A stretch of DNA of 10,058 nucleotides, from NCBI GenBank assembly GCA_015487895.1, contig WFOW01000281.1:1-10058 (forward strand), read 5' to 3'. Each line of letters opens with the position of its first letter. Position 1 is the first letter of the stretch. The position numbers and the translations under genes were made by a program. This DNA comes from Gammaproteobacteria bacterium (GTDB lineage: Bacteria > Pseudomonadota > Gammaproteobacteria > S144-34). Shown here piece after piece: positions 3,058-10,058 of this stretch. The notes beneath the pieces are model-generated. The model was not told where the DNA came from and did not search any database. It saw only the letters and a list, made by a program, of their open reading frames with translations.

Positions 3058-3834
3058 ATGCCGTTGCCCGTCTGGATCCTGCTCTTCTGCCTGCTCGGGG
3101 GCGCGCTGAGCGTCGTGGCGGCCGCCGGCTTCCTGCGGCTCGGGCGGCTGGCCGAGCGGCGGCTGCCGGACCTCGTCAGCTTCGCCACCGGCGCCCTGCT
3201 CGGCACCGCCTTCCTCGCGCTCCTGCCGCACGCGCTCGAGGAGCCGGGCGCGCCCGGGGCGCACCGCGTCATGGGCACCGTGCTGCTCGGCGTGCTCGCC
3301 TTCTTCGCGCTGGAGAAGCTCGTGCTGTGGCGCCACTGCCACGCCCCCGAGTGCGACGCGCACGGCCCCGGCGAGCCCCCCGCACGGCCGGCGGCCGGGG
3401 CCCTGATCCTGGTCGGCGACGCCTTCCACAACTTCGTCGACGGCGTGCTGATCGCAGCGGCCTTCCTCGCCGACATCCATCTCGGCATCGTCACCGCGCT
3501 CGCGGTGGCCGCCCACGAGATCCCGCAGGAGGTGGGCGACTTCGCGATCCTGCTGCACAGCGGCTACGGCCGCGCGCGCGCCTTCGCCTACAACCTGCTC
3601 TCGGGGCTCGCCACCGTCGTCGGGGGGCTGCTCGGCTGGGCGGCGCTCGCGCCCGCGCACGGCGCGCTCGCCTACGTGCTCGCCGTGGCGGCGGCGAGCT
3701 TCGTCTATATCGCCGTCGCCGATCTGATCCCGGACCTGCACCGGCGGCTCGCGCCCGGCGAGACCGCCCGCCAGCTCGCCCTCATCGCCCTCGGCGTCGG
3801 CGTCGTCGCCCTCGGCCACACCTTCGCCCACTGA
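3058..3834 (+). CDS. ZIP-family divalent metal transporter
   Basis: A polytopic inner-membrane protein of 258 aa, predicted to move zinc or another divalent cation toward the cytoplasm. Eight hydrophobic segments can be traced at about residues 3-24, 39-59, 71-90, 112-136, 142-168, 174-198, 203-222 and 236-254. The metal-path signatures of the ZIP family are present: H124-N-F-V-D128-G in segment 4 and H153-E-I-P-Q-E158-x-G-D-F in segment 5. The loop between segments 3 and 4 is rich in His and Cys (around 91-102), as in many ZIP proteins, and could bind metal. The start is ATG 3058 with GGAGG 7 bases upstream; longer in-frame starts would add non-homologous sequence. It has its own probable promoter and is not clearly part of the gltX-cysS operon. 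The family is clear; the substrate (Zn, Fe, Mn) and exact subgroup (ZupT- or GufA-like) cannot be decided from sequence alone. Confidence 0.9.
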   Translation: MPLPVWILLFCLLGGALSVVAAAGFLRLGRLAERRLPDLVSFATGALLGTAFLALLPHALEEPGAPGAHRVMGTVLLGVLAFFALEKLVLWRHCHAPECDAHGPGEPPARPAAGALILVGDAFHNFVDGVLIAAAFLADIHLGIVTALAVAAHEIPQEVGDFAILLHSGYGRARAFAYNLLSGLATVVGGLLGWAALAPAHGALAYVLAVAAASFVYIAVADLIPDLHRRLAPGETARQLALIALGVGVVALGHTFAH

Positions 3835-3839
3835 CCCGG

Positions 3840-4050
3840 CACCGGCCCGCCACCCCTGCGCGCGCCTGCGTGGCCAGGTGGTCGCGGATCGTGAGCGTCC
3901 GCACGCGGCGAACGCCTCCAACGCCGGCATCGCCCTGTCGCCCGTCACGACGGCCTAGGCGCGCCCGGCGAGCGCGCGCCCCAGGATCCGGTTGCCGGCC
4001 TCGTCGGCGAGGGTCCTCAGGCGCAGCCGCGGCCGTACCGTCGCGGAGCG
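3840..4050 (-). pseudogene. Decayed C-terminal half of a PIN-domain (VapC-like) toxin
   Basis: Read on the minus strand from about 4050 downward, the translation runs VRPRLRLRTLADEAGNRIL, then GRALAGRA, a TAG at 3957-3955, then AVVTGDRAMPALEAF, and after a one-base frameshift near 3906-3904 continues VRTLTIRDHLATQ. Joined, this follows the C-terminal half of many PIN toxins: (D)xxNxxLxxALAGRA-E/D-AVVTGDRxLLALExFxGVRILTxRxFL. The stop is one change from GAG (Glu), an acceptable residue there. I see no intact N-terminal half with the first catalytic Asp and no antitoxin beside it; the segment runs into the 5' side of gdh. It is therefore a relic of a toxin-antitoxin locus. The match is from memory of the family pattern, and the outer boundaries are approximate. 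Confidence 0.55.
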
Positions 4051-4158: not shown

Positions 4159-5589
<1,431 letters not shown>

Positions 5590-5590
5590 A

Positions 5591-5943
5591 CGGGTTGCGG
5601 GAGACGGGTTGCGGGAGACGGGAAAGAATGGCCGCGCGCGGAGCGCGCACCGACCCTCGCCTCCCGACCCCCGTCTCTCGCCTCTGCCGCCGCAGGTGGT
5701 CGCGCCTGGAAGGCGCTTGTAAAGTACGCGGGAGACGGGTTGCGGGGGACGGGAAAGAATGGCCGCGCCCGGAGGGCGCACCGACCCTCGCCCCCCGACC
5801 CCCGTCTCTCGCCTCTGCCGCCGCAGGTGGTCGCGCCTGGAAGGCGCTTGTAAAGTACGCGGGAGACGGGTTGCGAGAGGCGGGAAAGAATGGCCGCGCG
5901 CGGAGCGCGCACCGACCCTCGCCTCCCGACCCCCGTCTCCCGC
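5591..5943 (+). repeat. 131-bp tandem repeat array with nested hairpins
   Basis: The segment starting GAAAGAATGG recurs at 5622, 5753 and 5884, exactly 131 bases apart, as does GGGAGACGGGTTGCG at 5599, 5730 and 5861. Units 1 and 2 are nearly identical; unit 3 stops at about 5943. Each unit has a purine arm (e.g. 5597-5621) and a pyrimidine arm (5657-5681) that pair at 19 of 25 positions plus 2 G-T wobbles. At the apex is a small hairpin GCGCGC-GGA-GCGCGC (5634-5648; 5896-5910 in unit 3). In unit 2 this is GCGCCC-GGA-GGGCGC (5765-5779): both members of one base pair changed together. A second hairpin GCGCCT-GGA-AGGCGC lies at 5702-5716 and 5833-5847. No coding capacity is credible. The array starts 2 bases after the gdh stop and may end its transcript; it resembles REP/BIME-type elements, and mobilisation by a REP-associated transposase is only inference. 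Confidence 0.85.
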
Positions 5944-6029
5944 CACTCTGGATCGTGGGAGGGCTTCCAGCCCTGACCAAATGGCTGCGCGCGAAACGCG
6001 CACCGATCCTCGCCTCCCGCCTCTGGGCG
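5944..6029 (+). repeat. Divergent fourth repeat copy with inverted REP-like hairpin
   Basis: After the third unit the sequence changes to GTGGGAGGGCTTCCAGCCCT (5955-5974; hairpin AGGGCT-TCC-AGCCCT at 5960-5974) followed by GACCAAATGG. A variant apex hairpin GCGCG/CGCGC with loop CGAAA follows at 5987-6001, then CACCGATCCTCGCCTCCCG as in the other units. The spacing from the previous ATGGC word is 91 rather than 131 bases, and the long purine arm is missing. The TCC-loop hairpin is the reverse orientation of the GGA-loop hairpins at 5702 and 5833, including the GACCA tail, so both orientations of one palindrome family occur here, as in REP clusters. From 6030 to 6069 I see nothing further. Confidence 0.65.
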
Positions 6030-6069
6030 CTCGCCGGTCCGCGGGGCGCTCCACCGGGCACCGCATGCC

Positions 6070-7147: not shown

Positions 7148-7384
7148 ATGGACGCCGAGGCACCCACGCGGTTTGAGCGGATCACCGTCGATCCGGAGGT
7201 GATGGGCGGGCGGGCGTGCATTCGCGGGTTGCGCATCCCCGTGGCCGTGATCGTCCGGCTCGTGGCGCGGGGCGCCTCCTTCGAGGAGATTCTGGCCGGC
7301 TATCCCGATCTTACCAGGGAAGACATCCAGCAGGCGCTCGAGTATGCCGCCTGGCTCACGGACGAGCGGATCCACACGCCCTGA
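7148..7384 (+). CDS. DUF433 antitoxin
   Basis: A 78-aa protein of the DUF433 family, small winged-helix-like proteins that pair with PIN-like toxins and are thought to bind their own promoter and neutralise the toxin. The pattern is clear: I12-T-V-D-P-E-V-M-G-G-R-A-C-I-R-G-L-R-I-P-V, then G-A-S-F-E-E-I-L-A-G-Y-P-D-L-T-R-E-D-I-Q-Q-A-L-E-Y-A-A, the conserved EEIL...YP.LT.EDI helix-turn-helix core. Length is normal. ATG 7148 begins 15 bases after the def stop and is preceded by a -10 hexamer instead of a ribosome binding site. Its TGA stop lies in CTGA, where a toxin gene of this family would usually begin; here the toxin frame is shifted (see the 7344-7760 entry). Base composition is slightly less GC-rich than the flanking housekeeping genes, in keeping with an acquired module. 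Confident family call; toxicity and antitoxicity are inferred from the pairing. Confidence 0.85.
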   Translation: MDAEAPTRFERITVDPEVMGGRACIRGLRIPVAVIVRLVARGASFEEILAGYPDLTREDIQQALEYAAWLTDERIHTP

Positions 7385-7760
7385 GGCTCCTCTCCGGCTC
7401 CTCGTCGATGCCTGCGTGGATACGCGGCTCGCAGCCTGGCTTCGCGGGCGCGGGCACGACGCGCTCCATTTGTGCGAGCTGGGGCTTCAGCGGCTGCCGG
7501 ATCCTGGGGTTTTCGCGCTGGCGGTTGCCGAGCGGCGTATCCTGCTGACACATGACCTCGACTTCGCCGAGATCTGGGCGCTCGGCCGCAGGCACGGTAC
7601 GACGGGAGTGGTTCTGTTCCGGCTCCATGACCCCCGCATCCAACGTCTCCAGGCTCGGCTGGAGATGGTCCTGGCCGAGTGTGGCGCGGCCCTGCGGGAC
7701 GGCGCGGTGGTCCTGGTGGAGGACCGGCGTCACCGGGTGCGGCGGCCGGACGGCCCCTGA
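7344..7760 (+). CDS. DUF5615 PIN-like toxin, start uncertain
   Basis: The downstream partner of the DUF433 gene and a member of the DUF5615 PIN-like fold, probably a Mg-dependent ribonuclease. The family core is L-R-L-L-V-D22-A-C-V-D-T-R-L-A-A-W-L-R-G-R-G-H-D, followed by A-V-A-E-R-R-I-L-L-T-H-D71-L-D73-F-A-E-I and G-V-V-L-F-R-L (numbered from ATG 7344). D22, D71 and D73 are the likely metal-site acids. These proteins normally start with M-R-L-L-x-D, but here the codon in that position is CTC (7392-7394). The only in-frame start that keeps D22 is ATG 7344, which overlaps the antitoxin by 41 bases and adds a 16-residue Pro/Ser-rich extension. An 11-bp tandem duplication (7385-7395, with GGCTCCTC repeated at 7396-7403) sits exactly at the expected start. 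The toxin may thus be start-shifted, weakly expressed or silenced. The GTG codon after D22 would remove an active-site residue. Confidence 0.72.
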   Translation: MPPGSRTSGSTRPEAPLRLLVDACVDTRLAAWLRGRGHDALHLCELGLQRLPDPGVFALAVAERRILLTHDLDFAEIWALGRRHGTTGVVLFRLHDPRIQRLQARLEMVLAECGAALRDGAVVLVEDRRHRVRRPDGP

Positions 7761-7795
7761 GGCGGGTCCCGCGGCCCGTCGCGCGCGGTCCCGCC
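7761..7795 (+). terminator. GC-rich imperfect hairpin after the toxin gene
   Basis: GGCGGG (7761-7766) pairs with CCCGCC (7790-7795), and after a small internal loop CCGCG (7769-7773) pairs with CGCGG (7784-7788). It starts directly after the toxin stop and ends before the clpB promoter. No T-run follows, so true intrinsic termination is doubtful. The next bases to 7815 are GC-rich with no other signal I can support. Confidence 0.3.
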
Positions 7796-7815
7796 GGGGC
7801 CGGCGCCGGCGGTGC

Positions 7816-7843
7816 CTTGAAATGCCCCGGCTCGCCCCCAATC
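7816..7843 (+). promoter_or_regulatory. Sigma-32 heat-shock promoter for clpB
   Basis: A perfect CTTGAAA (7816-7822) is followed by CCCCAATCT beginning at 7836, so 14 bases separate CTTGAA from CCCC. This fits the sigma-32 (RpoH) consensus CTTGAA, 13-15 bp, CCCCATnT; the -10 differs mainly by A for T after CCCCA. Transcription would begin near 7850. The gene downstream, clpB, is a classic RpoH regulon member in gammaproteobacteria, which strongly supports the call. Confidence 0.75.
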
Positions 7844-7856
7844 TGGGCACCTAGCA

Positions 7857-8018
7857 GGAAGCCCTGAAAAATCCGACTTTTTCAGAGCTTCCCCGCGGCC
7901 AGGGACGGCCGCGGAAGGGCCCATGCACATGGAAGTGCATGACGATGCAGGGAGAAATCAAAATGGCCGCGAAGCACCTTAGCGGATCAATCCGCGTAGC
8001 GGATTGATCAGAGTTTCC
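7857..8018 (+). mobile_element. 162-bp MITE-like palindromic element in the clpB leader
   Basis: The left end GGAAGCCCTGAAAAA and the reverse complement of the right end, GGAAACTCTGATCAA, agree at 11 of 15 positions, and the element is flanked by AGCA on both sides (7853-7856 and 8019-8022), as expected for a 4-bp target-site duplication. Inside are four hairpins: 7857-7892 (6 bp, a mismatch, 8 bp; loop TCCGAC), 7893-7914 (8-bp stem CCGCGGCC, loop AGGGAC), 7922-7941 (7-bp stem CATGCAC, loop ATGGAA) and 7985-8009 (11-bp stem GATCAATCCGC, loop GTA). It is clearly AT-richer than its surroundings and has no transposase. It sits between the sigma-32 promoter and clpB, so it would be transcribed as part of the leader. 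The source family is unknown to me; a single palindromic leader of other origin is the alternative. Confidence 0.6.
7963..8007 (+). other. Possible 14-codon leader ORF inside the element
   Basis: ATG 7963 is preceded by AGGGAG (7949-7954) with an 8-nt spacer, a well-placed Shine-Dalgarno, and encodes [14 protein letters not shown] before a TGA at 8005-8007. The stop lies in the descending arm of the 11-bp hairpin at 7985-8009, so a translating ribosome would open that stem. An in-frame ATG at 7945 is a second possible start. The peptide matches no family I recognise, and an ORF this short can occur by chance. Confidence 0.2.
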
Positions 8019-8050
8019 AGCACGTTTTCCGGACCCGGGAGAGAAGATCC

Positions 8051-10058
<2,008 letters not shown>

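Follow-up and report, generated by a model that had tools for sequence, protein, structure and literature searches.

A probable IS5-type miniature element with CsrA-type hairpin loops, dispersed in a gammaproteobacterial genus, lies between a heat-shock-type promoter and clpB

The window, the whole 10,058-nucleotide stretch of DNA analysed here, is part of a gammaproteobacterial genome (G000; 2.31 Mb in 437 contigs, 88% complete) and ends within clpB. Upstream of clpB lies a promoter-like sequence that resembles the sigma-32 consensus, and between this heat-shock-type promoter and the ribosome-binding site of clpB sits a non-autonomous MITE at 7857-8018. The features of the region are as follows.

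7816..7844, plus strand: presumed sigma-32-like promoter, with CTTGAAA (7816-7822), a 13-nt spacer and CCCCAATCT (7836-7844), from the sequence
7853..7856, no strand: left target duplication AGCA, from the sequence and the duplication count of the family
7857..8018, plus strand: short form of the element, most likely an IS5-type MITE, 162 bp, a full-length match to covariance model R1 (184.9 bits)
7857..7892, plus strand: hairpin H1, formed by the left terminal repeat with an inverted copy of it, with a covarying stem
7893..7914, plus strand: hairpin H2, CCGCGGCC[AGGGAC]GGCCGCGG, with a CsrA-type hexaloop at 7901-7906
7922..7941, plus strand: hairpin H3, CATGCAC[ATGGAA]GTGCATG, with a CsrA-type hexaloop at 7929-7934
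7949..7954, plus strand: AGGGAG, Shine-Dalgarno-like and the third GGA, absent from many copies in the related genome G001
7963..8007, plus strand: short ORF within the element (ATG at 7963, 14 codons, TGA at 8005-8007), whose peptide and frame vary between copies
7985..8009, plus strand: hairpin H5, beside the right terminal repeat; the CT of its left arm, present in most other copies, is missing here
8019..8022, no strand: right target duplication AGCA, from the sequence and the duplication count of the family
8037..8043, plus strand: clpB's own Shine-Dalgarno sequence GGGAGAG, from the sequence
8051..10058, plus strand: clpB, its 3' part beyond the contig end, with domains Clp_N, AAA, AAA_lid_9 and AAA_2

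A preliminary description of this DNA had proposed a 162-bp segment flanked by AGCA, with terminal inverted repeats matching at 11 of 15 positions (GGAAGCCCTGAAAAA versus GGAAACTCTGATCAA) and four internal hairpins, and each of these features was recovered where it had been placed. A repeat tool returned a 22-nt arm pair at the element ends (77% complementary) and hairpin arms at 7857-7871/7878-7892, 7893-7900/7907-7914 and 7985-7995/7999-8009; the fourth hairpin (7922-7928/7935-7941) falls below the length limit of the tool and was found by inspection and in alignments. Eight bases separate the end of CTTGAAA-13-CCCCAATCT from the left AGCA, and 28 nt separate the right AGCA from the clpB ATG at 8051. 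Elsewhere in the window, a DUF433 and DUF5615 pair, presumably toxin-antitoxin-like, lies at 7148-7760 between def and the clpB promoter and is absent from that place in G002, and ORF translations at about 5580-6060 show the same peptide words several times, suggestive of a tandem repeat array.

The history of the insertion could be read from two further species of the genus. G002 carries the same clpB insertion, 98% identical across 980 surrounding bases, together with the promoter-like sequence. The clpB leader of G001 (91% identity in the start region) is empty, with the promoter (CTTGGAAA...CCCCATCT) followed by CCTAGC and then by 29 nt to the ATG. When the flanks of G000 and G002 were joined by script without the element and one AGCA and aligned with G001, G000 likewise gave CCTAGC followed by 29 nt to the ATG, and G002 one base more. 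Since G001 has the empty site and G002 shares the insertion, the simplest history places the arrival of the element in the common ancestor of G000 and G002, once the G001 lineage had branched off.

A search of the host genome for further copies, proposed in the same description, found many. Aligned pieces numbered at least 69 in G000, at least 68 in G001 and at least 68 in G002, counted among the best 40 of 64, 161 and 73 candidates, respectively; because several pieces may belong to one copy, we give copy number as dozens per species. The end motif GGAAGCYCTGAAAAA, with at most one mismatch and on both strands, occurs 62 times in G000, 115 times in G001 and 74 times in G002, and many of these occurrences are paired as the arms of an H1 hairpin, while the reversed motif, used as a control, does not occur at all. 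Among 56 genomes, four match by DNA similarity, namely the three of the genus and G021 (a 31-base piece). We extracted 93 copies of at least 120 aligned bases each, leaving out shorter pieces and a long form described below. Both ends were recognised in 73 of these (20 dropped), and after seven more with the same left flank were dropped, an exact 4-bp target duplication was found in 33 of 66 distinct insertions, against a mean of 0.9 and a maximum of 5 in 1000 shuffles; flanking repeats of 2, 3, 5 and 6 bases showed no excess. The duplicated words have no fixed sequence in this genus, indicating a loose choice of target. The element thus has the marks of a MITE: a length of 162 bp, terminal inverted repeats, many copies in three species, a target-site duplication and empty sites (clpB in G001; gatB in G002 and G001). 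The contrary outcome, a leader with neither further copies nor an empty allele, was looked for and not seen. A non-autonomous element in a clpB leader that, judging from the promoter-like sequence, is transcribed is therefore well supported.

Eight copies make up the long form, in which H2 and H3 are separated by an additional conserved segment some 127 bp long; in L212 to L218 this insert was seen to be GC-rich. The leader of lysC carries the short form in G000 and the long form in G002, and another site carries the long form in G000 and the short form in G002. Because two sites hold one form in one species and the other form in the other, recombination between copies is suggested. The lysC-like gene, which we name from its peptide, directly follows the element copy in both genomes, with csrA about 1.5 kb further downstream: in G000 the copy (L219) occupies 2041-2193 of contig C133 and csrA 3695-3850, and in G002 the copy (L212) occupies 1535-1852 of contig C180 and csrA 3353-3508. 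The csrA locus itself may be under control of the element. A solo 43-bp perfect palindrome, consisting of the right-end hairpin with terminal repeats at both sides, was also noted (L153:22-64), and similar stretches are present in L027 and L141.

To follow the family further, we built covariance model R1 from 42 copies and ran it on 369 genomes of the class, taking the best seven candidates per genome. At E<=0.001 at least 17 genomes match, three of them those of the genus itself, and a recognisable element is present in nine of the 14 others (G017, G021, G023, G024, G083, G093, G115, G127 and G214). Matches L257-L261 (G203, G010, G091, G364 and G237; E 9e-6 to 9e-4) were judged by eye to be something other than this element; L258 has an H1-H2-H3-like order with CACGGACG, but without GGAA..CTCTGA ends. 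The diverged set that we read comprises 14 copies, 13 whole and one partial. Most keep the ends, H1, H2, a long H3, an extra hairpin and H5, with stem sequences that differ widely. Exact flanking duplications are present in eight (six TTAA or TTAG, and two TAAA and CTGAG) and absent from six.

A 4-bp YTAR target is typical of IS5. In G127, five copies of a 1158-bp insertion sequence with a DUF772 match end in GGAACTTCTGCAAAAGT / GGATGCTCTGAACAAGT, and four of them are flanked by an identical YTAR word left and right, while the remaining copy has TTAG and CTAG; the one copy scanned encodes an IS5-family transposase (NF033581, 353 bits). In G093, a 1191-bp insertion sequence (GGAAGCTCTGCAAAAG) has CTAA on both sides and a reading frame that is seemingly interrupted (a 228-codon piece, 210 bits). 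The preliminary description had looked to a parent transposase with matching ends: ends that are similar, though not identical, occur in these two other genera, while within the genus itself none of the PF01609, PF13586 and PF05598 matches in G000-G002 has matching ends, and a DUF772 search gave no additional candidate. Two DDE transposase genes (G001 C47 and G002 C192) were rejected as parents, the flanks examined containing no matching end pairs. The ends and the targets of diverged members thus point to IS5 as the probable parent class, with no parent found within the genus in three transposase families, and the element is most likely an IS5-type MITE.

Hairpins like H2 were also seen in other repeats or repeat-like stretches (L169, L145, L178, L152, L171, L176, L115, L159, L184-L186, L257 and L259), whose hosts include Microbulbifer, an Oceanospirillales MAG, MAG Ch67 and Sedimenticola. 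Most of those read have a second GGA hairpin-like site nearby, and the eight tested gave no Rfam match at these positions. No exact match to H2 was found in viral contigs, and the H2 matches listed in Planctomycetota, Pseudomonas, Bradyrhizobiaceae and Lysobacteraceae records had no further likeness to the element.

What goes beyond the preliminary description, as read from these sequences, is that the hairpins covary, that their loops are of CsrA type, that copies are oriented to start codons and that the element can supply one. The window copy folds at -72.1 kcal/mol, below all 200 dinucleotide shuffles (-49.6 +/- 4.2 kcal/mol; z -5.4). Across 93 copies, 3820 of 3947 cells in the four stems are Watson-Crick, the best of 300 column shuffles reaching 3699, and there are 95 double compensatory changes (65 in H1, 25 in H5 and 5 in H3) and 66 broken cells, although these counts and shuffles ignore the relatedness of the copies. 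H2 never varies on both sides in these copies, and the hairpin H4 has poor support within the genus. RNAalifold, applied to 42 copies, gave 40 pairs, 13 of them with double changes. Stem mismatches are G-T in 61 cases versus A-C in 31, a weak hint of a plus-strand RNA signal. At the level of sequence, these data establish that members of the family have the potential to fold as hairpins with compensatory changes.

In the cited parts of PMC7652899, a CsrA site is described as a hairpin whose hexaloop reads ANGGAN; the consensus from SELEX is RUACARGGAUGU, and CsrA bridges two such sites 10-63 nt apart. The canonical CsrA/RsmA site CANGGANG is found in the H3 loop of 92 of the 93 copies, in the form AC[ANGGAN]GU, with the first N free (T in 38, G in 34 and C in 21), and in the H2 loop of 82. 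By comparison, only 4 of 579 perfect 6-bp-stem hexaloop hairpins in the surrounding DNA of the three species have this loop. Both H2 and H3 are thus candidate CsrA hairpins, with an ANGGAN loop closed by C-G, and their GGAs lie 25 nt apart, inside the bridging range. The H2 stem consists of eight G-C pairs, unlike the SELEX hairpins, which mostly have no more than four contiguous pairs (PMC7652899, in the part consulted).

In the diverged set, H2 carries CANGGANG in 13 of 14 copies (in L225 within a partly duplicated H2; lost in L250), a retention that is in part a search bias, given that R1 includes the H2 loop; the H5 loop of R1 has no GGA. None of these copies has CANGGANG in H3, and all 13 that reach H5 have a GGA in its loop (seven CAGGATG, four CGGGACG and two CANGGATG). 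H5 in the original genus is without GGA, so no single GGA site is universal. In two further G127 copies beside the insertion sequence, outside the count of 14, the H5 loop likewise contains CAGGATG; the H2 site is intact in one of them and replaced by CAGTGATG in the other (L228). Two putative GGA sites per element are therefore usual, one of them having changed hairpin in the diverged relatives. One CsrA gene was found in each of the three genomes of the genus; residues 1-58 of its product are a close match to the solved structure 1y00 ('Carbon storage regulator'), presumably the E. coli protein.

The position of copies relative to genes was determined for 82 non-redundant copies of the 93, using a home-made codon-usage ORF caller trained on the window. 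In tandem settings, 32 copies lie sense and 8 antisense within the genus (p=2e-4); by genome the counts are 12:5 in G000 (p=0.14) and 13:2 and 12:3 in the other two. The downstream gene is co-oriented with the element in 60 of 78 cases, and a called start lies 0-17 nt beyond the right end in 17 of 60 cases, compared with 1 of 33 for the left end (p=0.002). An SD-like word precedes 1 of 12 starts at 0-14 nt from the element, 11 of 21 at 15-60 nt and 15 of 24 further away, a count that leaves out three overlapping starts and in which clpB is scored as lacking an SD despite GGGAGAG before 8051, because the caller picks the ATG at 8057. At L106 the caller chose a TTG 17 nt downstream, the frame being open from the element's ATG. 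The placement of the copies establishes that the right end is preferentially directed towards predicted start codons.

The element itself has an ATG after an A-rich segment in 72 of 85 anchored copies (eight without an anchor were excluded), 44 of them with an SD-like word, which is absent from many G001 copies. A conserved leader peptide was ruled out, as frame and sequence vary and the ATG is absent from the other 13 anchored copies. Of 25 copies that adjoin or overlap a start, 19 have both SD and ATG intact, whereas 29 of the 66 remaining copies do (p=0.009; orthologues kept, two copies excluded), with no difference in G001 alone (2 of 4 versus 11 of 29). Seven copies read in frame from the element's ATG into the next gene, a native ATG following the element in three of these (L068, L014 and L105). 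Two genes besides gatB, which we take from their peptides to be patatin-like and PRPP-synthetase-like, are read in frame from the element with their native start to its left.

The clearest case is gatB. In G000 a copy lies within its first codons, after ATGATGGA; the G002 allele reads ATGATGGAATGGGAAGCG without an element, and the G001 allele is empty too. In G000 a stop codon towards the left end of the element closes the GatB frame. Beyond it, the in-frame starts that preserve the conserved VIGLEIH N-terminus are all ATGs belonging to the element, the final one preceded by GGGGGAG. As judged from the reading frames, the element thus supplies the only start that keeps this N-terminus. The G001 gatB match (G001:C54:18824-20020, L264) is 74% identical and passes two TGA codons, which may reflect a frameshift, decay or an assembly error.

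IS5-family MITEs are already known, and the element resembles them in being short and without a conserved protein, in its GGAA..CTCTGA-type terminal repeats and exact 4-bp duplications, in the YTAR targets of diverged members and in the presence of IS5 transposases with similar ends in two genomes; it differs in having RNA-like hairpins with CsrA-type loops and, within its own genus, in a loose target choice with no parent detected. Other parts of the picture are likewise familiar, including MITE RNAs (PMC5896051), elements fused in frame (PMC10969869) and proposed CsrA-binding RNA families (PMC4333381), as far as the parts of these sources used here extend. QMITE1 and QMITE2 of Coxiella number about 50 copies in each family, and QMITE2 has a large and a small form, much as in the present family; small RNAs are transcribed from some QMITE copies, and one QMITE2 copy gives a promoter element rather than CsrA-type loops or a start, and the portion of PMC5896051 consulted does not mention CsrA. 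Rickettsia palindromic elements are also about 150 bp long and enter host genes in frame, leaving a conserved peptide inside proteins (PMC10969869, in part), whereas the present element lies upstream of genes or at their start, can supply that start and has no conserved in-frame peptide.

On the RNA side, the TwoAYGGAY RNA (RF01731) and Bacillaceae-1 are proposed CsrA-binding RNAs that share two hairpins with CsrA-site loops (PMC4333381, in the part consulted); the element differs in being transposable, with terminal repeats and target duplications. RF01731 matched neither window positions 7750-8150 at E up to 1 nor five diverged-member loci at E up to 0.5, and Rfam gave no above-threshold match bearing on the element. 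CsrB/RsmZ sponges and glgC-type leaders have, in the accounts consulted, the same ANGGAN hexaloop closed by C-G and two sites within bridging distance, and CsrB repeats contain the CAGGATG of seven diverged H5 loops (PMC7652899, in part), whereas here the putative sites lie in dispersed mobile leaders. CsrB analogues in Alteromonas are described, in the part of PMC5864184 consulted, without a link to a transposable element. Literature searches of open-licence PMC papers found no report joining CsrA/Rsm sites to a MITE or repeat, and none of the element's end sequence. What appears to be new is that the stems of a transposable element covary and two of its loops carry the canonical site CANGGANG, thereby joining, in no report that we found, a transposable element to putative CsrA sites.

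Taken together, these data make it rather probable that the element acts as a transposable 5' leader, bringing genes under CsrA control and able to supply a start codon, where CsrA binding and the effect on clpB are what we infer. The heat-shock-type promoter would initiate clpB transcription immediately upstream of the element, and H1, H2 and H3 would then form the beginning of the mRNA; more generally, any host promoter reading through a copy would yield an mRNA leader with a pair of CsrA hairpins. A CsrA dimer might then bridge H2 and H3, protecting the 5' end or changing stability or initiation as in the glgC and flhDC leaders, whose control by CsrA serves as our model (PMC7652899, in part), or might extend to the GGGAG that adjoins the ATG of the element, in the manner reported for the same two leaders. 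Where an insertion has cut away the native SD, the A-rich SD/ATG segment would start or restart translation. clpB keeps its native SD, and the expected effect would be that a heat-shock mRNA gains a structured leader responsive to CsrA, which perhaps shares in CsrA titration during a clpB burst. Because this SD lies about 95 nt after H3, direct occlusion by CsrA is unlikely at clpB, and altered stability, or coupling via the short ORF, would be likelier.

Quasi-palindrome correction can create compensatory changes without selection. The element could accordingly be an ordinary IS5 MITE, whose hairpins serve transposition or arise by hairpin-templated repair, whose GGA loops have no RNA role and whose insertion at clpB is neutral. 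The terminal repeats do lie within H1 and H5, where palindromes could serve a transposase or replication, and the 61:31 ratio of stem mismatches is only a weak strand signal; yet DNA-only palindromes would not be expected to keep a loop GGA nearly fixed beside a free N, to retain GGA loops across genera while stems change, or to be biased in orientation to start codons, and we regard this explanation as unlikely, while still giving it some weight. It is quite improbable that the element is a portable translation-initiation leader, retained for its SD/ATG and orientation, with hairpins that insulate or stabilise the mRNA and CsrA irrelevant. The gatB start inside the element, the seven copies in frame with the next gene (three with a native ATG after the element) and the scarcity of SD-like words at starts within 14 nt of it would all fit such a role, which nonetheless leaves unexplained two conserved GGA loops, found also in genera with a different middle part, and sits poorly with an SD that is not conserved in G001. 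We hold it very doubtful that the copies act mainly in trans, their leader transcripts forming a CsrA sponge like CsrB but spread over mRNAs: two sites per copy and dozens of copies per genome would add up, but two sites per mRNA are few against the roughly 18 CsrA subunits per CsrB given in the cited part of PMC7652899. That clpB has always had these hairpins in its leader, with no insertion, as the shared leader and 98% identical region of G002 might have suggested, is contradicted by the empty site in G001, the target duplication and the many dispersed copies, and has next to no chance of being right.

For both clpB and gatB, alleles with and without the element are available among the three species, which makes an effect on a heat-shock gene and on a core gene directly testable. 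There is also a practical warning, in that gene starts in such genomes, as in gatB, can fall inside repeats. Going further, we suggest tentatively, as a possibility short of an even chance, that transposition recruits genes to the Csr network: every insertion would provide a leader with two CsrA hairpins, plus a translation start where one is required, and the leaders taken over in this way would include those of clpB (heat shock), gatB and lysC, the last lying upstream of csrA; the element would then be a mobile builder of a post-transcriptional regulon, kept in several lineages by its RNA function. This would be comparable to promoter-carrying transposons, but at the level of mRNA. Binding sites that travel on a mobile element would, if this is true, directly explain how a global regulator that binds RNA extends its regulon.
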